From: Scytonema tolypothrichoides VB-61278
GTDB lineage: Bacteria > Cyanobacteriota > Cyanobacteriia > Cyanobacteriales > Nostocaceae
DNA length: 46,632 nucleotides
Reading direction: 5' to 3'
Assembly (NCBI RefSeq): GCF_000828085.3
Contig: NZ_JXCA02000003.1
Span: forward strand, 100,524-147,155
The notes under the pieces were generated by a model. That model made no database searches and was not told the DNA's origin. It saw only the letters and a list, made by a program, of their open reading frames with translations. Below are positions 4,442 to 14,629 of this stretch, piece by piece (position 1 is the stretch's first letter; every line of letters begins with the position of its first letter). The translations under genes and the position numbers were made by a program.

Positions 4442-5569
4442 TCAAGTCAAACAATCCTTGAGGCTATAAATCACGTGGTTTTGCTGTTCTTCTGACAATT
4501 CTGGGAACATAGGCAAGGATAAAACTTCCTGACTGGCTTGCTCAGCTACTGGTAATTGTCCCTCTTTGTAGCCCAGATTTTCATAAACTGGCTGTAAGTG
4601 TAAAGGACGGGGGTAGTAAATCATTGTGTTTACACCCCGTTCTTGCAATAAACTCTGAATTGAGTCCCTTTTATTGTCTCTTACGCGAATGGTATATTGA
4701 TTCCAGACTCCCATACCTCCAGCCAATTCTTGGGGTACAATCACACTCTTGATTTGATTGAGGAACTGGTGATAACGAGCAGCAACTATTCGTCGTTGAT
4801 TATTCCAAATATCTAGATATCGCAGCTTAATTTGAAGAATAGTTGCTTGGATAGCATCCAAACGGCTGTTGACACCAATTTCTTCATAATGATATCGATT
4901 TTTCTGACCATGCTCTTTTAAGACTCGTAACTTTGCTGCAATTTCGGGATCGTTTGTTGTGATTGCCCCACCGTCACCGCACCCACCAAGATTTTTGGTA
5001 GGGTAAAAACTAAAGCAACCGATGTGTCCAATACTTCCTACTTTTTGCCCTGCCCAGTTTGATCCTGTAGACTGAGCACAATCTTCTATCACAACTAAAT
5101 TGTGTGCTTTTGCTACATCCATCAATGCAGTCATATCCACAGGTTGACCGAACAAGTGAACTGGGATAACTGCTTTGGTATGGCGCGTGATTGCAGCTGC
5201 GACTTGCTCTACATCTAGATTAAACGTAGTCGCATCAATATCAACAAATACTGGCTTGGCACCCACAGCACTGATAACCTCAGCAGTGGCGATAAAAGTA
5301 AATGGTGTCGTAATAACTTCATCGCCTGCACCAATGTTTAGAGCTCTGAGTGCTAAGAAAAGAGCATCAGTACCCGAGTTACATGCAACACATTCCGTGA
5401 CACCAATATATGCGGCGAGCTGTTGCTCAAAGCCTGCTACTAAAGGACCCCCAATATAACGACCAGAAGCAAGAACCTCTAAAACGGCTGCGCTGACTTC
5501 TGCTTCTATAATGGTGTATTGTTGCTTATTATCAAAAGCTGGTACAGAATGATTTAGACTTTGAACCAT
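4442..5569 (-). CDS. DegT/DnrJ/EryC1/StrS-family PLP-dependent aminotransferase
   Basis: The 375-aa protein is full length for this family of sugar aminotransferases, which use pyridoxal phosphate to aminate keto-sugars for O-antigen, glycan or antibiotic sugars. Visible motifs are CNSGTDALFLALRAL (cofactor phosphate region, about 63-76), the conserved acidic residue in VIEDCAQS (D163), and SFYPTKNLGGCGDGGA, where K192 is the expected Schiff-base lysine. The C-terminal part ends with YPRPLHLQPVYENLGYKEG, usual for the family. The start is the ATG at 5569. No other sugar-modifying genes sit beside it, so its sugar substrate cannot be inferred. Confidence 0.9.
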   Translation of the reverse strand: MVQSLNHSVPAFDNKQQYTIIEAEVSAAVLEVLASGRYIGGPLVAGFEQQLAAYIGVTECVACNSGTDALFLALRALNIGAGDEVITTPFTFIATAEVISAVGAKPVFVDIDATTFNLDVEQVAAAITRHTKAVIPVHLFGQPVDMTALMDVAKAHNLVVIEDCAQSTGSNWAGQKVGSIGHIGCFSFYPTKNLGGCGDGGAITTNDPEIAAKLRVLKEHGQKNRYHYEEIGVNSRLDAIQATILQIKLRYLDIWNNQRRIVAARYHQFLNQIKSVIVPQELAGGMGVWNQYTIRVRDNKRDSIQSLLQERGVNTMIYYPRPLHLQPVYENLGYKEGQLPVAEQASQEVLSLPMFPELSEEQQNHVIYSLKDCLT

Positions 5570-5954
5570 GAGATTTTATCTTAACTTCAAGATAGATACT
5601 GACGTTAGATTTGGTGCCCCTGATCGTTGTGAATCAAAAAGCTCGTGAAAGTCTTCTTCCTCAAATTTCTATTATTCAAGAGTTTTCACGGAGGTTGTTT
5701 TTCAAAAAGGCTACTATCTTCTAGGGTGCAAGGAATTGTATATCCACCAAGAACCAATACCGAATGTGAAAGTTCCCGATGAGTACTTTTAGAAAAACAG
5801 GGATTAAAACAGTGAACAGTGAACAGTGGTAACTGATAACTGGTAACTGGTAACTGTAAAACATAAAGGACAGAGCACGCATAGTGCAACCTATTACCTG
5901 TAACCTGTAATCTATACCTTATAATCCATATGTACAAGAGGTAGAAAACCCAAA
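5570..5954. other. Intergenic region with short tandem repeats
   Basis: No gene is supported. The only structured part is the tandem repeat tract at 5811-5857 and a looser run (ACCTATTACCTGTAACCTGTAATC) at about 5890-5915. The reading frame on the minus strand through 5686-5937 is made by these repeats and is not believable. Confidence 0.5.
5811..5857. repeat. Short tandem repeats (AACAGTG and GTAACTG units)
   Basis: Seven-base units AACAGTG (two to three copies) pass into GTAACTG/ATAACTG units (four copies). Such heptamer repeats are typical of filamentous cyanobacterial genomes and have no known function. Confidence 0.8.
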
Positions 5955-6728
5955 ATGGAGCTGATCAAGCTAGATTTCGTCGATTTGGCTTTAGCTGTTG
6001 GATTAATGGGCGCAGCCATAGGTTTATCGGCTTGGGAACGAATAGGATTAGAGTTCAATTTAGCCCTCGCAACAGGCAGAACCTTTCTACAACTAGCTAT
6101 ATTGGGATATGTTTTGGAGTTCATCTTTGCTTTAGATAATCCTTGGGCAGTTTTGGCGATATTAGCAGTCATGCTGACGATTTCAGCAATTGTCGCACGA
6201 AATCGTATAACTCAAAAAATACCGCAGATGTTGCCCTTAGTGTGGGGATCAATTTTGCTCAGTACAACCATAACACTGGTTTATACTAATATATTGATCA
6301 TTCAACCAGACCGATGGTTTGAGCCACAGTATGTGATTTCTCTGGGAGGAATAGTATTAGGTAATGCAATGAACGCCGCCGCCCTGGCTGGAGAACGTTT
6401 TGTTAGTATTATGAATGCGAGTCAGTTAGAAATAGAAACTCACTTAAGCTTGGGCGCAAGTCCACAACAGGCGATCGCACAATACCGTAAAGACGCTGTG
6501 CGCGCTGGATTGATTCCTACTCTCAATCAAATGATGGTTATCGCTATGGTGACCCTACCAGGAATCATCACTGGTCAATTGCTCAGTGGCATTAATGCTC
6601 GTGAAGCTGCATCTTATCAAATTTTGATTATGTTTATGATTGCCTTCGCCAATTTGCTGACAGTACTGTTAGTTACTCGGGGAATATCTCGTCAATTTTT
6701 TAATCCCACCGCCCAGCTGGTGAGATAA
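5955..6728 (+). CDS. fetB: UPF0014 family ABC transporter permease (FetB/YbbM-like)
   Basis: This 257-aa integral membrane protein has about six to seven hydrophobic segments. The family-defining stretch VLGNAMNAAALAGERFVSIM (about 134-153) is followed by LGASPQQAIAQYRKDAVRAGLIPTLNQM and VTLPGIITGQLLSGI. In E. coli FetAB is an iron-related exporter. The usual ATPase partner FetA is not adjacent here; neither neighbour is an ABC ATPase, so the partner must be encoded elsewhere. The ATG start is preceded by a weak AGAGGTAG-type ribosome site. Confidence 0.87.
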   Translation: MELIKLDFVDLALAVGLMGAAIGLSAWERIGLEFNLALATGRTFLQLAILGYVLEFIFALDNPWAVLAILAVMLTISAIVARNRITQKIPQMLPLVWGSILLSTTITLVYTNILIIQPDRWFEPQYVISLGGIVLGNAMNAAALAGERFVSIMNASQLEIETHLSLGASPQQAIAQYRKDAVRAGLIPTLNQMMVIAMVTLPGIITGQLLSGINAREAASYQILIMFMIAFANLLTVLLVTRGISRQFFNPTAQLVR

Positions 6729-7467: not shown

Positions 7468-8703
7468 ATGGATTTATTAGAATACCAGGTGAAAGAATGG
7501 TTTGCGAACATAGGCATTCCTGTATTGCCTTCGCAACGAATTGACCATCCCACGGATTTAAAACGTTTAAAAATTGACTACCCAATTGTTCTGAAATCTC
7601 AGGTGAATGCGGCGGAACGAGCAAAAGTAGGTGGAGTCAGATTTGTAGAAACGACTATCGATGCGATCGCCGCTGCACGAAGTATCTTTAATTTGCCAAT
7701 TTTAGGACAATTGCCAGAAGTGTTACTGGCAGAAACTAAGTACGAAACGGAACAAGAATTTTATCTTGCTGTGGTCTTGGATACAGCTGTCTGTCGTCCT
7801 ATACTTTTAGGGTGTACAGAAGCTATGGACATAGATTGGGACTCAGCAGACGAAAAAATGCACTACGTTGTCGTTGAACAAGAGTTTTCCCCATTTTATG
7901 CTCGACAACTGGCGTTGAAAATGGGCTTGCAAGGTGCCTTAATGCAGTCAGTTAGCAATGTTGTGGAGAAGATGTACCAGTTATTTGTGGAAAAAGACTT
8001 GGACTTAGTGGAAATCAATCCCTTAGGTGTGAGTCCCTCTGGTCAAGTTATGGCACTTAATGGTAACGTCAGCATTAACGAACGGGCAATTGGTCGCCAT
8101 CCAAATATGGCTGACATAGCAAAAGCAATGGTCAACCCTTATACTAGTAGTCATACAATCCGGAACTTGGGCGACTGGGATGTCGTAGAAATGCACGGTA
8201 AAATTGCCATATTGGGCAACGGTGCTGGATTGGTCATGGCAACTTTAGACTTAGTCGTTAATAGTGGTGGAAAGCCTGGGGTGTGTCTAAACCTGCGTCA
8301 TGCCTCTGTTACCGAAACCTCACCAACCACTTTCAAGAGTCGGTTAGAACAAGCTTTAAAAAACCTGGCTACGGATAAAAGTATTCAGGTAATACTCATT
8401 AATTTCCTAGGTAGCATTTCCCAAGGTACTGAAGTTTCTGAAGTCATTGGCGACTTTGTAGAAAGTAGTATGACTGAAGCTCAACTATTTATGGCTAAAT
8501 CTAATGGAGGTAAAAACCGTCGAGAGAACAGTTTTCCGCGCTTAGTCGTTCGTCTTGCTGGTTCTGAGTTCGATACAGCAAGAATTGATATAGCAGCACT
8601 GAAAACTCCAACTGATACGTCGATAACGGTAGTGGAAAATTTAGATGAAGGCGTAGCAGAAGCAATTCGTTTGGCTAAGTCAACAGTATATAGAAGATTT
8701 TAA
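7468..8703 (+). CDS. Succinyl-CoA ligase beta-subunit-like protein, divergent (sucC paralog)
   Basis: I place the start at the ATG at 7468, since AAGGTG at 7455-7460 is well spaced; a GTG two codons upstream is also possible. The 411-aa protein has the ATP-grasp and ligase domains of SucC: MDLLEYQVKEWFANIGIPVLPSQ, VEKMYQLFVEKDLDLVEINPLGV and GNGAGLVMATLDLV. Several conserved sites are changed. The glycine-rich nucleotide loop (GGRGKAGG in E. coli SucC) reads AAERAKVGG. The metal-binding LDGK reads LNGN (the equivalent of Asp213 is Asn). The GGGA loop of the ligase domain reads RHASV, and a low-complexity insertion (KSNGGKNRRENS) appears near residue 350. It pairs with the sucD-like gene 167 bases downstream. 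Catalysis as a normal succinyl-CoA synthetase looks doubtful. Confidence 0.85.
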   Translation: MDLLEYQVKEWFANIGIPVLPSQRIDHPTDLKRLKIDYPIVLKSQVNAAERAKVGGVRFVETTIDAIAAARSIFNLPILGQLPEVLLAETKYETEQEFYLAVVLDTAVCRPILLGCTEAMDIDWDSADEKMHYVVVEQEFSPFYARQLALKMGLQGALMQSVSNVVEKMYQLFVEKDLDLVEINPLGVSPSGQVMALNGNVSINERAIGRHPNMADIAKAMVNPYTSSHTIRNLGDWDVVEMHGKIAILGNGAGLVMATLDLVVNSGGKPGVCLNLRHASVTETSPTTFKSRLEQALKNLATDKSIQVILINFLGSISQGTEVSEVIGDFVESSMTEAQLFMAKSNGGKNRRENSFPRLVVRLAGSEFDTARIDIAALKTPTDTSITVVENLDEGVAEAIRLAKSTVYRRF

Positions 8704-8771
8704 CTAATTCACCTCGTGGACTACTATTTGATTTTTGCGAAGCTTCGTACACCTCAAATAACCTTTCTTTT

Positions 8772-8837
8772 TTCCTGTTCCCTGTTAAGCGTTCCCTGTT
8801 CCCTGTTAAGCGTTCCCTGTTCCCTATTGCCTGTTCG
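8772..8837. repeat. Short tandem repeats (TTCCCTG and TTAAGCG units)
   Basis: Units TTCCCTG and TTAAGCG alternate several times, ending in TTCCCTATTGCCTGTTCG. They fill much of the 167-base gap between the sucC-like and sucD-like genes. The repeats match the heptamer repeats common in filamentous cyanobacteria. Confidence 0.8.
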
Positions 8838-8870
8838 TGCCAACACAACTAATTTCACCAATTTTATATT

Positions 8871-9752
8871 ATGAATTTAACACCATATAGCAAAGTGTTA
8901 ATCCAAGGCTTTTCTGAGTACATTACAGCAAATCATGTTGCTCAAATGAAAGCCAATGGTACAAATTTGGTGGCTGGGGTTAATCCTGGATCTGGCGGAC
9001 AACAGATGTATAGTCTACCAGTCTTCGATCTCGTAGAGGAAGTCGTAGAAAAATTTGGAGTGATTGATACTACAATTATCTGCGTCCATCCTTACCAAGT
9101 TTTAGATGCAGCACTAGAAGCGCTGGAATCTGATATCCGCCAAATCATCATCATCTCCCCTGGTGTACCACCCTTGGATATGGTACAACTACTTCGTAAA
9201 GCCGAAGCTAAAGAAACTCTCATAGTAGGACCAAATAGTCCTGGGATTATCATACCGGGAAAAATCCTCTTAGGAACTCAACCTAGTGAATTTTATACAG
9301 CAGGTTCAGTAGGAATTTTGAGTCGGAGTACGACTCTAACTTACGAAATTGCTAGAGAATTAACTGATGCTGGCTTGGGACAGTCGATGAGTGTTAGCAT
9401 TGGGAGTGATGCGATCGTTGGTTCGTCTTTTCTGCAATGGCTACAAATATTAGATGAAGATGAAGCCACAAAGACAATTGTTTTGGTTGGTCAACCCGGT
9501 GGCGATCGCGAAGAAGCCGCAGCACGATATATTGCAGAAGCAATTGATAAACCAGTTGTTGCCTATATTGCAGGTACACAAGCACCATCCGCAAGACATT
9601 GGCGTCAGACAGGTACTTTGGCGGCTGTGATCGGACGCGATCCTGATTTTGGCACAGCAAAAAACAAATTAGCCGCTTTTTCCTTTGCCAGAGTTCCAGT
9701 TGCAGAACGTCCTTCTCAGATTCCAGAATTGGTGAAGAAGGCGCTGAGATAG
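8871..9752 (+). CDS. Succinyl-CoA ligase alpha-subunit-like protein lacking the catalytic histidine (sucD paralog)
   Basis: The 293-aa protein aligns along its whole length with SucD, which binds CoA and carries the phosphohistidine of succinyl-CoA synthetase. The fold is kept (VNPGSGGQQMYSLPVFDLVEE, GPNSPGIIIPGKILLGTQP, DPDFGTAKNKLAAF). The catalytic residues are not. The motif GHAGAI, whose His is phosphorylated (His246 in E. coli), reads RQTGTL, with Gln at 246. The GEIGG glutamate that supports it (Glu208) is Gln208 (GQPGG). GPNCPG is GPNSPG, SRSGTLTYE is SRSTTLTYE, and the CoA loop GFTGSQG is GFSEYIT. The C-terminal half still ends with PVAERPSQIPELVKKAL, typical of cyanobacterial SucD. 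It ends five bases before a convergent gene. Confidence 0.87.
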   Translation: MNLTPYSKVLIQGFSEYITANHVAQMKANGTNLVAGVNPGSGGQQMYSLPVFDLVEEVVEKFGVIDTTIICVHPYQVLDAALEALESDIRQIIIISPGVPPLDMVQLLRKAEAKETLIVGPNSPGIIIPGKILLGTQPSEFYTAGSVGILSRSTTLTYEIARELTDAGLGQSMSVSIGSDAIVGSSFLQWLQILDEDEATKTIVLVGQPGGDREEAAARYIAEAIDKPVVAYIAGTQAPSARHWRQTGTLAAVIGRDPDFGTAKNKLAAFSFARVPVAERPSQIPELVKKALR

Positions 9753-9757
9753 CAAAA

Positions 9758-11437
9758 TTACTTGCCTGATTTAAACAGTGCTTTGGAAGTAGAATCGCCT
9801 GCTAGCCGCAATTGTCGTGTTAGTTGCAGGTTGAGCAATACTAGCACAAGTAGCTGAGCCACTACTATCACCCAAACGGCTGTTACAGTGTTGCCCAGCA
9901 ATAAAACAAAGGGATAAATAAACAGTTCCAAGGGGCTGAAACCGTTAATCCCCAGTAACCTAGAAATGACCGACGGCAATAAAATTGTTGCACCCAGCGC
10001 ACTAGCTGTCCAAAGTGCCCGTTGCTGAATTCGCATGAACAACACTAATTGAGCAAAGCTTGCGTAAATCATTAGTAAGATACTATTAAGAGCTAGACCG
10101 AAAAACGCCCAGGTTCTGTTCTCATCTACTCGGTAGGGTATCTCTCCTTTTTGTTGGGCAGGCGAGAGTAAAATAAAGAAAGCTAGAAAAATTATGACGA
10201 TGATCAGATTGATAGCGATCGCTACCACTGCCGGATTTTTTTCACCCCAAATTAAATCCTGTACTAACGAGTTATAACCGAGTTTCTTGCTACTAGAAAC
10301 TCTCTGGTGTCGGTAGCGTGCCCAATCTTGTAGTGCTTGGCGGTGAGGTGTGATAGCAGCAATTAGATATAGGAACAGCAAAAAATTCAATAACGATAGC
10401 GCAAAGAGGTTTTCAGTCAGCGGCAAAGCGTATGGGCTACGATTTGCTGGTGCTGCGTAGTTGGCGCATCCTATAGTTAAAACTGTAAAGCAAACAGTCA
10501 GCAAATAACTCTGCTGCTTACTTAACATAGTCGCGTTCTGATCACGAAAGCAACGCTGCAAAGATTGCCAAATAAACCCGGTTAAAATGCCGTAATTTAA
10601 CAGAACAAAACCGACGATAGTTAAGACATTACCACTTAGTACAAAGTGAAACCACTTAAAACGTTCTAACCCTGTCGCAAAGCCTTCAAAAAAAGAAGTT
10701 GTAGACAAATTTGGGATTAGACAAAAAGGATTAAGCAGCTTCAGCCAAGTCGTTGAATTAAAATAACTAGTCGTGCTTATTCCTTTAGTTAACATCAAGA
10801 AAATTAAAACTGCCCCACTACCTAACCAAGCTTGAAAACTGCCAAGCCAAGAACCAACCAAGCCAAATAGCATAGCAGCACTGTAGTAAAAAACAGAAGC
10901 TACAGCGACAACTGCGTAGAAGCTCAAAATTAGACTTAGAGGAATTTTGGCAGCAAGCCCAGAGTACAAATGCAAAGGAAGTGCTAATGCGGTAAACAAA
11001 TAAATCAAAATCGGCACTCCTAGCAACTTGCCGATGAAAATACTTTTTTCTGATTGGGGGCTGAGGCGAGTCAAATTAAATGTGCCGCGACGTTCTTCAG
11101 TTGCCAAATCGTTAATTAGCATATAAGTTCCTGCAACTAACAGGATGACAATGCCAATTAAACCTAAACCTACGAATATGTCTCGCCACCAGGATTGCCA
11201 GTATTCATCCGGCAGGCATTTCAACTGATATCTCTTGTCAAGATTTTCACCGAAAGTTGGTGCACAATATTTGTCGAATATATCAGAAGTTACACGGGTC
11301 AGTAGCTGGGTTTGGAAAGATATCAATACTATAATAAATTGACCCACCAAGGAAAGAGCAATTGTAAGTAGTATGTTGCGGGGTTTGAGGCGTCCTTTGA
11401 GTTCTCGTAACAGCTGAGGATTCCAGTTAAGTTTCAT
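9758..11437 (-). CDS. ABC-2-type transporter permease (second of two)
   Basis: The 559-aa protein begins WNPQLLRELKGRLKPRNILLTIALSLVGQ, closely matching the start of the gene just upstream. It has a first membrane helix, a periplasmic loop with two cysteines (CAPTF and KCLPD), then LINDLATEERRGTFNLTRLSPQSEKSIFIGKLLGVP. That segment, an amphipathic stretch with ATEERRGT, is the typical coupling region of ABC-2 permeases. About ten further hydrophobic segments follow. It is the last gene of a three-gene minus-strand operon (ATPase, permease, permease), 95 bases from its paralog. The substrate cannot be told. Confidence 0.82.
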   Translation of the reverse strand: MKLNWNPQLLRELKGRLKPRNILLTIALSLVGQFIIVLISFQTQLLTRVTSDIFDKYCAPTFGENLDKRYQLKCLPDEYWQSWWRDIFVGLGLIGIVILLVAGTYMLINDLATEERRGTFNLTRLSPQSEKSIFIGKLLGVPILIYLFTALALPLHLYSGLAAKIPLSLILSFYAVVAVASVFYYSAAMLFGLVGSWLGSFQAWLGSGAVLIFLMLTKGISTTSYFNSTTWLKLLNPFCLIPNLSTTSFFEGFATGLERFKWFHFVLSGNVLTIVGFVLLNYGILTGFIWQSLQRCFRDQNATMLSKQQSYLLTVCFTVLTIGCANYAAPANRSPYALPLTENLFALSLLNFLLFLYLIAAITPHRQALQDWARYRHQRVSSSKKLGYNSLVQDLIWGEKNPAVVAIAINLIIVIIFLAFFILLSPAQQKGEIPYRVDENRTWAFFGLALNSILLMIYASFAQLVLFMRIQQRALWTASALGATILLPSVISRLLGINGFSPLELFIYPFVLLLGNTVTAVWVIVVAQLLVLVLLNLQLTRQLRLAGDSTSKALFKSGK

Positions 11438-11532
11438 AAAAAAAGTCTTTCCAATTCGCAGTTAGTTATAGAACAGACACACCCCAAACCAGAAACAAAT
11501 TTGTTGCTATTTCAGCTTCTGAAAATTCTTCC

Positions 11533-13464
11533 CTAGCGTCCTGTCAACAATGCTTTTGTCGCAGAGTCTCCTGCAAGTCTCACCTGTTTTATCAGATGCA
11601 AGTTTAACAATACCAAAACACTCAACTCTCCCAACCAAGCCAGAAAAATTGTTGGCGTCGAGGCATACTCCAAACTAGCCCAAGGAAAAGTCGAAAACAG
11701 CCACACAGTAGGATATTTAGAATAATCAACAGAAAGCATTCCTAGAATGACTGGTGGTAAGAAAACCGCTGCGCCAATAGTGCCAACTGCCCAGAAAGAA
11801 CGCTTAGTTGTTTTCATCAACAGCATCCTCTGGGCTATGGTGGCGTAAATTATCATCAACGTGATAAACATGGCTACACCTAAGATGGTCTTTAGCCTAC
11901 CAACATGATTAATTTGCCAATCTATATTAGAGGTGTTGTGAATATTCAAAACAGGTGCCAGTAAAATCCAAACAAGTAATGGGACTGTCACTATCACAAG
12001 ATTAATTGCTATTGCCACAAATGAAGGGCTTTTTTCACCTAAAATCAAATCCAGCAACAAAGATTTTCTCCAAACACTTTGATGACCAGAAAGATTCTGG
12101 TGTCGATACCTTGCCCAATCTTGTATCGTTTGACGGTGAGGTGAGAGAATTGCAATTAAACTGAACAACAGCACTAAGTTGAAGAAAACTAACCAAAACA
12201 AACTCTGTTGTATTTGAGAATTCACATCGTAAATGCAACAAGAAACATTACTTTGAGATTCATACTCACAAGCAGAATTACAAAATCCTTCTCTGTATTG
12301 TAAAGCAAATCCCCAAAAAATAAATTGGAAGCAAGCAACAAATAAATAACTTTGATCCTTGCTAAAAATAGTAGCATTTTGATTACGGAAACAACGCTTT
12401 AGTGCTTGCCAAATCCAGTAAGTCAACAAGCCATAATTCAACAAGTGCAAAGCCATTAAACTGCCAATATTTGTTCCCACAGGAATATAGAAAAACTGGA
12501 CTTTTTGCATGAATACCCAGTTGTATCCGTTCTTAAAGATATTTGGGAAGAAATGCTGGGTCATGTCAAAGGGGCTTAACAGCCTAAACCAAGCAAATGA
12601 AGAATTTAATGAGTATGATTCAGACGACGCCAATTGCATCGTAAGTACCAAAAATAGTAAAACAGCACCACTACCGAACCAAGCTTGAAAACCATTCAAC
12701 CAACGACAACATAAACCAAAAAGCAGTGCCACAGTGTAAAAGAAAATGCAGGAACCCGCTAGAACAACCCAAAAACTTAAGATGTAACTTGTGGCAATAT
12801 TGGCACCGTGTCCAGCAATGAAATGTAGAGGGACTGCTGTGAAGACAAGCAAATAAATTAAAATTGGAACACCCAGTATTTTGCCAATTAAAATACTAGT
12901 TTCTGATTGAGGAGTGAGGCGAATAAAATTGAGTGTGCCGCGCCGTTCTTCAGTCGCTAAATTATTGATGAGTAAATAGGTGCCAGCAACTAATAGTGTG
13001 AAAATAAAAATGATACTCAGGGAGAAAAATATGTATCCCCAGTGTTCACGCCACCACATTTGCATGTCAAGTTGGTCAGCTGGGCAGAAATTCTTGGATA
13101 AATAGTTATTGGACTCAGTTATTTTTGTTTGAATTTGTGCAATTTCTGCTTTAAGTTCTTGGATTTTATCTGGTAATCTTGGTTGAGTATTTAGATAACT
13201 ATCTAATTGTCTCTGAAGGTTATTAGATTGTTCAGACAACTGGTTAGTCTTGTAATCATAAGCTGGACGGAGACGACAATACTCTCCAACGAGTGAATAT
13301 TCGTCACCAGGTAAGTTTGCCAATTGACAAAGAAATAGTACCAGTTGACCAACTAGCGATATGACAACTGCGATCGCTACATTAAACCCTTTAAAGCGTC
13401 CTTTAATTTCTCGGAATAGTTGGGGATTCCAATCACCTAGTTTGTCTATCAAGTTGATTATCAT
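11533..13464 (-). CDS. ABC-2-type transporter permease with periplasmic coiled coil (first of two)
   Basis: The 643-aa protein is a paralog of the next gene (DWNPQLFREIKGRFKGFN, LINNLATEERRGTLNFIRLTPQSETSILIGKILGVP). It differs by a longer loop between membrane helices 1 and 2. At about residues 66-130 this loop carries a predicted coiled coil (LSEQSNNLQRQLDSYLN, KIQELKAEIAQIQTKITES) that should lie outside the membrane, perhaps a contact for a partner. Another cysteine-rich loop (CNSACEYESQSNVSCCIY) appears near residue 400. A tandem gene duplication followed by divergence is the simplest history. The two permeases could form a heterodimer with the upstream ATPase. Confidence 0.82.
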   Translation of the reverse strand: MIINLIDKLGDWNPQLFREIKGRFKGFNVAIAVVISLVGQLVLFLCQLANLPGDEYSLVGEYCRLRPAYDYKTNQLSEQSNNLQRQLDSYLNTQPRLPDKIQELKAEIAQIQTKITESNNYLSKNFCPADQLDMQMWWREHWGYIFFSLSIIFIFTLLVAGTYLLINNLATEERRGTLNFIRLTPQSETSILIGKILGVPILIYLLVFTAVPLHFIAGHGANIATSYILSFWVVLAGSCIFFYTVALLFGLCCRWLNGFQAWFGSGAVLLFLVLTMQLASSESYSLNSSFAWFRLLSPFDMTQHFFPNIFKNGYNWVFMQKVQFFYIPVGTNIGSLMALHLLNYGLLTYWIWQALKRCFRNQNATIFSKDQSYLFVACFQFIFWGFALQYREGFCNSACEYESQSNVSCCIYDVNSQIQQSLFWLVFFNLVLLFSLIAILSPHRQTIQDWARYRHQNLSGHQSVWRKSLLLDLILGEKSPSFVAIAINLVIVTVPLLVWILLAPVLNIHNTSNIDWQINHVGRLKTILGVAMFITLMIIYATIAQRMLLMKTTKRSFWAVGTIGAAVFLPPVILGMLSVDYSKYPTVWLFSTFPWASLEYASTPTIFLAWLGELSVLVLLNLHLIKQVRLAGDSATKALLTGR

Positions 13465-13678
13465 TTAACAAAACTCCAGAATTAAGTTAACTACTTTGTA
13501 GAGTCCAAGTCCGCCATTGAGTAACTAATGACGTAAGAATTCAGCACGAATTGGGTCATTTGTCAGAATTTGTAAGGAGTCTAGTATGATTGGTACATTC
13601 ATTCATCAAATGTTCTCCTGATTTTGTAACTATTCTGACTCCTGGATTCTGACTCCTGAATTCTTACTTAATGACTAA
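13465..13678. other. Gap between ABC ATPase and first permease
   Basis: No gene is visible in these 214 bases. A GACTCCTG/ATTCTGAC-type repeat (CTGACTCCTGGATTCTGACTCC at about 13635-13657) is the only pattern. The gap is long for one operon, so a second promoter for the permeases is possible. Confidence 0.3.
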
Positions 13679-14629
13679 TCAAGATGCTTGCTTATGACCT
13701 AATTTGAGGAAAATTGTTTCGAGGTCTTCTTGAGTGCAGTGAAAATCAGTCAGAGGAATATTAGCTGTAACAAGCGATCGCAACAAATTTGCACAATCTT
13801 CCTGTTTACCAGAAAAATTGACTCGCACGCTATTTTTTGTAGGCATGATCTCCCACTCTTGTACGTGAGGATTATTTTTGAGTTCTCCTAAAAGTTCGTC
13901 TAATTTGCCTAAAGTCGATATGATAATTTGCTGGCGGGCAAGACGTTGGTAAAGTTGTTGTAGCGATGCACTTTCGACCAAAAAGCCAAGTTCCATAATT
14001 CCCACACTTGTACACAGTTCCGCTAAGTCGCTGAGAACGTGGGAGGAGATCAATATTGTCATCCCTGCTTCTTGCAACACCTTGATGATTTCGCGAAACT
14101 GCACCCTCGCAATTGGATCTAATCCTGAAACTGGTTCATCTAGCAACAAGACAATAGGTTCGTGGATAATGGTTCGGGCTAAACACAAACGCTGTTTCAT
14201 TCCTCGTGATAGTGTCGAAATCAAGCTATTGCGTTTATTGCCCAGTTGTATCAGTTCTATAACTTCGTACAGGCGTTGAGTGCGGCGTGGTTCCCGCAAC
14301 TGATACAAACGCGCAAAATAATCTAGGTAGTCCCAGACTGTCAGTTCCTCGTACAGTGGATAGTCGTCAGGTAAATAGCCTAAGCGACGCTTGAGGGTGG
14401 GGTTGCTTTTGTCGCGTAGTAGGCGATCGCCATTAATATAAATCTCACCCGTCGTTGGTTCCTCCGCAGCAGCCAACATCCGGATGAGAGTCGTTTTCCC
14501 TGCACCATTAGGACCAATCAGTCCGTAAACTTCTCCTGATTCTATTTCTAAATCAATATCATTTACAGCAACGTGTCTGTCAAATTGCTTAGTCAGTTCA
14601 CAAGTCCGGATTGCCAGTTCTTTTGTCAT
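13679..14629 (-). CDS. ABC transporter ATP-binding protein
   Basis: The 316-aa protein has all ABC ATPase motifs: Walker A GLIGPNGAGKTT (about 36-47), Q-loop region LGYLPDDYPLYEELTV, signature LSRGMKQRLCLARTI, Walker B VLLLDEPVSGLDP and the H-loop SSHV. A C-terminal region of about 100 residues (VESASLQQLYQRL onward) is the usual extra domain of CcmA/NatA-type exporters. It is the first gene of the operon with the two ABC-2 permeases and should power them. The start is the ATG at 14629. It faces the glycoside-hydrolase-like gene across 240 bases. Confidence 0.92.
   Translation of the reverse strand: MTKELAIRTCELTKQFDRHVAVNDIDLEIESGEVYGLIGPNGAGKTTLIRMLAAAEEPTTGEIYINGDRLLRDKSNPTLKRRLGYLPDDYPLYEELTVWDYLDYFARLYQLREPRRTQRLYEVIELIQLGNKRNSLISTLSRGMKQRLCLARTIIHEPIVLLLDEPVSGLDPIARVQFREIIKVLQEAGMTILISSHVLSDLAELCTSVGIMELGFLVESASLQQLYQRLARQQIIISTLGKLDELLGELKNNPHVQEWEIMPTKNSVRVNFSGKQEDCANLLRSLVTANIPLTDFHCTQEDLETIFLKLGHKQAS

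Follow-up and report, generated by a model that had tools for sequence, protein, structure and literature searches.

In a 46,632-nucleotide stretch of Scytonema tolypothrichoides VB-61278 (contig NZ_JXCA02000003.1; the whole stretch is called the window here), two adjacent genes encode proteins resembling SucC and SucD, the beta and alpha subunits of succinyl-CoA synthetase (SCS, EC 6.2.1.5), in which the residues expected to carry SCS catalysis have been replaced. Comparison of related genomes confirms that this observation is real, family-wide and derived, and codon-substitution estimates indicate that both genes of the pair are under purifying selection. On this evidence the pair is probably mislabelled as an SCS and probably does something else. 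We consider it very likely that the pair is not a phosphohistidine SCS, and we lean slightly towards its being a pseudo-SCS alpha-beta complex that has turned to a ligand-binding, regulatory or structural role. The features on which the argument depends are these:

7468..8703, plus strand: SucC-like beta subunit, 411 amino acids (aa), with ATP-grasp_2 and Ligase_CoA domains (Pfam, above cut-offs)
7609..7635, plus strand: former nucleotide loop of beta, residues 48-56, AAERAKVGG against canonical (A)GGRGKAGG
8059..8061, plus strand: beta Asn198 in place of the LDGK Asp, AAT codon, LDGK changed to LNGN
8290..8301, plus strand: beta NLRH motif, residues 275-278, where betas of other classes have DVGG
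8871..9752, plus strand: SucD-like alpha subunit, 293 aa, with CoA_binding and Ligase_CoA / Succ_CoA_lig domains (Pfam, above cut-offs)
8907..8936, plus strand: alpha GFSEYITANH, residues 13-22, where SCS of other classes has G[IF]TGxxGxxH
9492..9494, plus strand: alpha Gln208 in place of Glu208, CAA codon, GEIGG changed to GQPGG
9591..9638, plus strand: former phosphohistidine loop, alpha residues 241-256, with Gln246 at 9606-9608 (CAG), GHAGAI changed to RQTGTL

Replaced residues in the Nostoc family

Both open reading frames (ORFs) are full length, open and adjacent on the plus strand. The ATG at 7468 is preferred as the beta start and residue numbers are counted from it, the listed ORF beginning two codons upstream at a GTG (7462). 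The proteins pass the gathering cut-offs of PF00549, PF08442 and PF02629, and the pair thus belongs to the Pfam CoA-ligase superfamily. Against the NCBIfam models for SCS, alpha scored 274.6 bits (PRK05678, curated cut-off 336) and beta 192.3 bits (PRK00696, cut-off 370). The alpha of a control from another class (L091) passed PRK05678 at 426.2 bits, while its beta, at 360.2, also fell slightly below 370, so that the beta cut-off by itself decides little. Alpha reached 62.8 bits against the acetate--CoA ligase alpha model TIGR02717, for which the cut-off is 567.15, and no other enzyme family in the Pfam/NCBIfam comparison matched the pair better. AlphaFold2 models gave a predicted local distance difference score (pLDDT) of 88.6 and a predicted TM-score (pTM) of 0.85 for alpha, and 84.7 and 0.62 for beta, in which domain orientation is uncertain. 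The old histidine loop of alpha (residues 241-256) has pLDDT below 50 and is predicted to be disordered. The best Foldseek matches were SCS alpha 3ufx for alpha (TM-score 0.91) and SCS beta for beta (TM-score ~0.6).

Among the features that define SCS, the pair lacks alpha His246 and Glu208, the alpha loop G-x-T-G-x-x-G, the beta LDGK Asp and, for both subunits, scores above the curated cut-offs; it has the ATP-grasp Lys43, Arg51 and EINPL and the folds of both subunits. Judged by sequence, it shows the two marks of a pseudoenzyme, namely loss of catalytic residues from a gene under selection. A sequence-only reading that preceded this analysis had described full-length SucC/SucD-type genes in canonical order, with Gln246 and Gln208 in alpha and LNGN in beta. 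The open frames, Pfam domains and predicted folds bear out the first point, and the substitutions are as it gave them, both alpha residue numbers included. It had also called the nucleotide loop lost; the sequence is indeed altered, but loss was an overstatement, as the window beta keeps Lys43, Arg51, Lys53, GG55-56 and EINPL when GGRGKAGG is aligned with AERAKVGG.

The window's family (f1), which we take to be GTDB's Nostocaceae and term the Nostoc family, includes Brasilonema, Nostoc and Dolichospermum. A plasmid stretch of G409, in the window's genus (g1), matches Brasilonema octagenarum UFV-E1 at 100% identity; G125 matches Nostoc sp. 'Lobaria pulmonaria (5183) cyanobiont' and G103 Dolichospermum flos-aquae CCAP 1403/13F. 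Family counts rest on 43 alphas and 41 betas from a phylum sample plus 25 further family genomes, and invariant residues were defined on 12 alphas and 10 betas of other classes. The search for homologues with both Gln changes, which the sequence-only reading had proposed, found them throughout: Gln208 is present in 43/43 alphas of the phylum sample and 25/25 further ones (68/68), and Gln246 in 40/43 (the rest T, E and N) and 25/25 (65/68), with His in none. The motif around Gln208 in the further genomes is GQPGG in 23, GQLGG in one and GQSGG in one. Beta Asn198 is equally constant (41/41 plus 25/25, or 66/66), against Asp in 10/10 betas of other classes. Each residue of NLRH occurs in 41/41 betas, its L being likewise L in all 41, and the whole motif in 25/25 further genomes; eight other family betas have His for the Asn of EINPL.

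The invariants of other classes that persist in 80% or more of His-intact cyanobacteria and have been lost from 90% or more of f1 are A58, E208, G245, H246 and A247 in alpha, and A8, G52, G119, G121, D198, L255 and G277 in beta, the last being Arg in 41/41 family betas. Residues new to the family are fixed despite codon variation, with four codons in use for alpha Pro209 among the first 43 family alphas and five for beta Arg277 of NLRH. In the alpha CoA-binding Rossmann domain, G16E and C123S (43/43 each), F71C (39/43) and the Lys of PGKGG are further replacements in f1 of other-class invariants, at positions that presumably contact CoA. They weaken the earlier suggestion of a CoA or acyl-CoA sensor, with the proviso that several predate the loss of the histidine: Gly16 is Glu in 34/51 His-intact cyanobacterial alphas also, and G16E, L91Q and F194L, being already common in His-intact relatives, are older than that loss.

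Selection, descent and genomic setting

Estimates of omega (dN/dS) for the family were 0.088 for alpha (22 alphas) and 0.143 for beta (18 betas), and for the genus 0.112 and 0.187 (seven genomes). Family trees are long (~11 codon changes per site), so that synonymous change is probably saturated and the genus values are safer. With omega set to 1, twice the log-likelihood difference (2dlnL) came to 291 and 245 for the genus samples; the family samples gave higher values. Selection for another role in preference to decay, as the sequence-only reading had it, agrees with these values and with the family-wide changes. The finding that would have told against it, close homologues with GHAGAI and a dN/dS near 1, did not appear, and a private decaying duplicate is rejected, since the changes are common to the family and omega is 0.09-0.19.

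The sister family f3, in the two genomes read, retains GE[IT]GG, GHTGT, GGRGRAGG and LDGK, and f1 groups with it in the tree (SH-aLRT 100); the change in f1 is thus derived. This was a quick tree of 118 pairs, built after the catalytic stretches of alpha and the alignment column of the beta Asp were taken out, with SH-aLRT support only and a long-branch warning. The minimum number of state changes it requires is six for residue 246, four for residue 208 and two for the beta Asp. Among those at 246, the changes in L060 and L071 depend on a loop whose alignment is doubtful, and we rely only on the two large losses.

The second of these was separate and affected a clade of Crocosphaera, the Epithemia and Rhopalodia endosymbionts, Hydrococcus, f5 (with Synechocystis) and f9 (Picosynechococcus). 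The histidine there mostly became Asp (40 alphas), and the betas mostly retain the ATP-grasp motif, with Gly for Asp in L165 and Asp for Arg in L079. Some strains were named by sequence matches: G058 shares an identical plasmid with Picosynechococcus sp. PCC 7117, which matches NC_010476 (PCC 7002) at 91.5% over 81%, and G387, G389 and G076 match [Synechococcus] sp. NIES-970, Synechocystis sp. PCC 6714 and PCC 7338 respectively. His246 is absent from all six genomes of the Picosynechococcus genus of G058 (Asp 5, Asn 1) and from all five of the Synechocystis genus (Asp 3, Asn 2). The 6803 sucD primers given in a passage of PMC4295605 match Synechocystis salina (L132) on either side of the codon for residue 246, the forward primer from its second base on. 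Of 166 alphas, 60 retain both Glu208 and His246, 95 have neither and 11 are mixed; His246 is absent from 83/111 genomes of the window's class, 43 of the 83 lying in f1, and from every genome read in 13 of its 22 families. One alpha with Gln208 and a retained His246, that of Cyanosarcina radialis (L134), lies close to the root of the Asp246 clade and, from its sequence and position, is a possible intermediate toward histidine loss. Both genes, with Asp246, are also kept on the 2.5-3.1 Mb chromosomes of Epithemia/Rhopalodia endosymbionts and a relative (L113-L115, L117).

The window's genome (7.89 Mb, 99.97% complete) has just two PF00549 matches, both in this pair, and that search found no second SucC/SucD-type pair; the idea that the pair regulates a normal enzyme is accordingly unsupported. 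Searches of the genome for three succinyl-CoA producers or users, 2-oxoglutarate dehydrogenase E1, HTS/MetA and DapD, gave no match, with control genomes positive for each. In the phylum sample 328/386 genomes match the alpha protein, many weakly. Among the matches listed at E < 1e-12 no genome occurs twice, and the weaker second matches among those listed are long proteins (~720-980 aa). Within the family the alpha match is present in 214/217 genomes and strong in 211, the three without any match being at 54-89% completeness; at least two genomes have two alpha copies, at 6% and 38% contamination.

The two subunits have probably stayed partners. In 143/144 located pairs the two genes share a strand, with beta upstream and no more than 1.5 kb from alpha. 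Sixteen genomes with alpha unlinked from beta, 12 of which lack His246, were searched, and 16/16 have a beta elsewhere with EINPL and LDGK. The beta matches of L227 and L228 each contain one TAA; a single frame of 396 or 402 aa holds the motifs, so the TAA is probably near the end. Six f8 genomes (L111, L112, L185-L188) have an unlinked alpha, 29-37% identical to the window protein, in which the SCS motifs are gone, and retain beta elsewhere with EINPL and LDGK.

Two further features of the locus lie outside the old catalytic sites:

8482..8535, plus strand: C-terminal-domain insertion of beta carrying basic residues, around SNGGKNRRENSFP, in columns mostly gapped in betas of other classes
8704..8870, plus strand: intergenic spacer containing three tandem 21-nt repeats (TTCCCTGTTCCCTGTTAAGCG-like) at 8771-8833

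Promoter and terminator scans gave signal no higher than shuffled sequence. Upstream (4442-6728), a DegT-type aminotransferase gene on the opposite strand and a UPF0014 gene precede beta and alpha, an order that recurs in L046, L073, L080 and L084, with UPF0014 seen in the absence of the aminotransferase in L053. This neighbourhood was rejected as a cause of the site change because it occurs with and without His246. At 20/110 loci, 76 of the 110 extending 3.5 kb upstream, a gene for a 320-715 aa protein is divergent from beta (L033-L043, L053, L072, L079, L081, L083, L084, L089, L098, L107). The L084 protein has no Pfam match and one likely membrane stretch, judged by eye, and the gene does not adjoin the window pair. 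On the minus strand at 9758-14629 the window encodes two related membrane proteins (559 aa, with no Pfam match, and 643 aa) and an ABC ATPase; similar genes sit downstream of alpha in L048, L064, L078 and L080.

Possible roles of the pair

We propose that the pair forms an SCS-descended alpha-beta complex that would keep its fold and be unable to run the phosphohistidine reaction. According to passages of PMC5160925, cyanobacteria form succinate via a bypass of 2-oxoglutarate decarboxylase and succinic semialdehyde dehydrogenase (SSADH), and succinate from this source may have made SCS catalysis dispensable. The complex may then have been retained to serve central carbon metabolism as a structural part or as a regulator that binds a ligand. 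Its new surface for binding or contact would be the rebuilt site (GQPGG, W-x-Q-x-G, NLRH, LNG), and an adenylate or small carboxylate, once bound, might alter the shape or partner of the complex.

Several observations weigh against this proposal. Family f6, in which the histidine is intact, has similar omega values (0.123, 0.135), and low omega shared with such a family is evidence for function and not for which function. Several residues of the ATP site persist, which makes nucleotide chemistry conceivable. Three family genomes of at least 93% completeness (G423, G433, G557) have only a weak alpha match, and the pair appears dispensable in some genomes. Flanking genes compared across the 110 loci did not point to a role, and a literature search on one neighbouring gene of 7002 led to papers on sucrose alone. 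Published physiology concerns Synechococcus 7002 and Synechocystis, which fall in the other clade with an intact ATP-grasp site, as judged by congeners; residue 246 of 7002 and 6803 is likewise known here through congeners only. In the relevant passages of PMC5160925, sucCD mutants of 7002 failed with 2% CO2 sparging, and slow bubbling with 1% CO2 was used instead; as bubbling changed along with CO2, the effect of CO2 is not isolated. Succinate and malate in the mutants were ~60% of wild type in the light and ~40% in the dark, and the authors take the lowered succinate as support for SCS activity; in a quadruple mutant, however, succinate was not below the wild-type level. As deletion phenotypes, the growth failure and the lowered acids are also evidence on the side of the proposal. 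A passage of PMC9855186 reports an assay of succinyl-CoA in Synechocystis with an unchanged level, so that a source of it may exist.

The most serious alternative, although we think it unlikely, is that the pair is still an enzyme with other chemistry, an ATP-grasp ligase or acyl transferase working without a phosphohistidine, either by phosphorylating its substrate directly or, in the other clade, through Asp246. Each of the three groups compared conserves beta Lys43, Arg51, EI(N)PL (its Asn excepted) and GG55-56 at 95% or above, and the other clade combines an ATP-grasp motif with Asp246, as such an enzyme would lead one to expect. It fits f1 poorly, where the metal-ligand Asp is Asn in every beta read, the Gly-rich loop is altered, some betas have His for the EINPL Asn and no other enzyme family is a better match. 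A pure scaffold or assembly factor, kept for protein contact and binding no ligand, ranks next and lower; persistence of the fold and co-retention while catalytic residues change would suit it, and a PDB integrative model of GatB with SucD (9a6e) indicates that SucD may have other partners. The family-specific Gln208, beta Arg277 and Asn198, all at old active-site loops, suggest instead a pocket.

A working SCS of unusual mechanism seems improbable, and less probable than a scaffold. Its case lies in the 7002 deletion and the Synechocystis assay described above, and in a passage of a review (PMC7133116) stating that Synechocystis SucC/SucD probably interconverts succinate and succinyl-CoA. It would have to operate with the phospho-acceptor and its supporting Glu replaced and an alpha well short of the SCS cut-off, in a genome where the three usual succinyl-CoA producers or users were not found. 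Last in order is a decaying, functionless remnant, which is already largely refuted: the catalytic residues are gone and 6/217 family genomes, three of them incomplete, have no strong alpha match, but an omega of 1 is rejected, both genes are co-retained and no internal stops occur among the family matches listed.

Other passages in the literature treat the genes under the SucCD annotation (PMC8385029, PMC5464585, PMC7871529) and describe their regulation. One passage of PMC9175036 has SucC/D clearly reduced solely under light-activated heterotrophy, and another has glucose causing strong downregulation, less so at high CO2; nitrogen depletion lowers sucC and sucD transcripts (PMC4295605) and sucD is raised in early light (PMC4959675), again according to passages of these papers. 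Nowhere in the open-licence PMC listings and passages covered is the SucD of cyanobacteria said to have lost its histidine. If the pair is dead as an SCS in the Nostoc family and the Synechocystis/Picosynechococcus clade, the succinyl-CoA step is misassigned in both, and the published 7002 deletion phenotype would offer a handle on the new function. More tentatively, and somewhat less likely than not, cyanobacteria may have converted their sole SCS at least twice to a non-catalytic complex that regulates carbon metabolism, one branch remaining ATP-binding and the Nostoc family having a rebuilt ATP site. On that reading, SucCD of Synechocystis, Synechococcus 7002, Crocosphaera and Nostoc would neither make nor use succinyl-CoA, and the growth phenotype of the 7002 deletion would report the regulatory role.

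Comparison with known systems

The pair resembles characterized SucCD (PRK05678 and PRK00696; E. coli 1jkj, Thermus 3ufx) in its subunits, domain order, beta-alpha gene order and fold, and differs in Gln246, Gln208, Asn198, the altered nucleotide and CoA loops and scores below the cut-offs. The His-intact cyanobacterial 'SucCD' (f2, f3, f4, f6, f17-f20, f22) have the same pair, gene order and several of the changes in the CoA domain, and the three alphas tested also fall below the PRK05678 cut-off (304-323 against 336 bits); unlike the window pair they keep Glu208, His246 and the ATP-grasp Asp, with the qualification that one f6 genome has Pro at 246 in a doubtful alignment. The Asp246 cyanobacterial 'SucCD' share with the window pair the loss of the phosphohistidine and Glu208 and the retention of both subunits, but their loss is a separate one in which the beta ATP-grasp motif is kept and alpha Thr155 is also changed. 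ATP-citrate lyase and citryl-CoA synthetase belong to the same superfamily at much lower similarity; they presumably use the same catalytic His as SCS, and we take Glu599, replaced in the human E599Q entry 6uuw, to correspond to alpha Glu208. The intact, mixed and remodelled forms in cyanobacteria would provide a natural series from a central enzyme to a pseudoenzyme.

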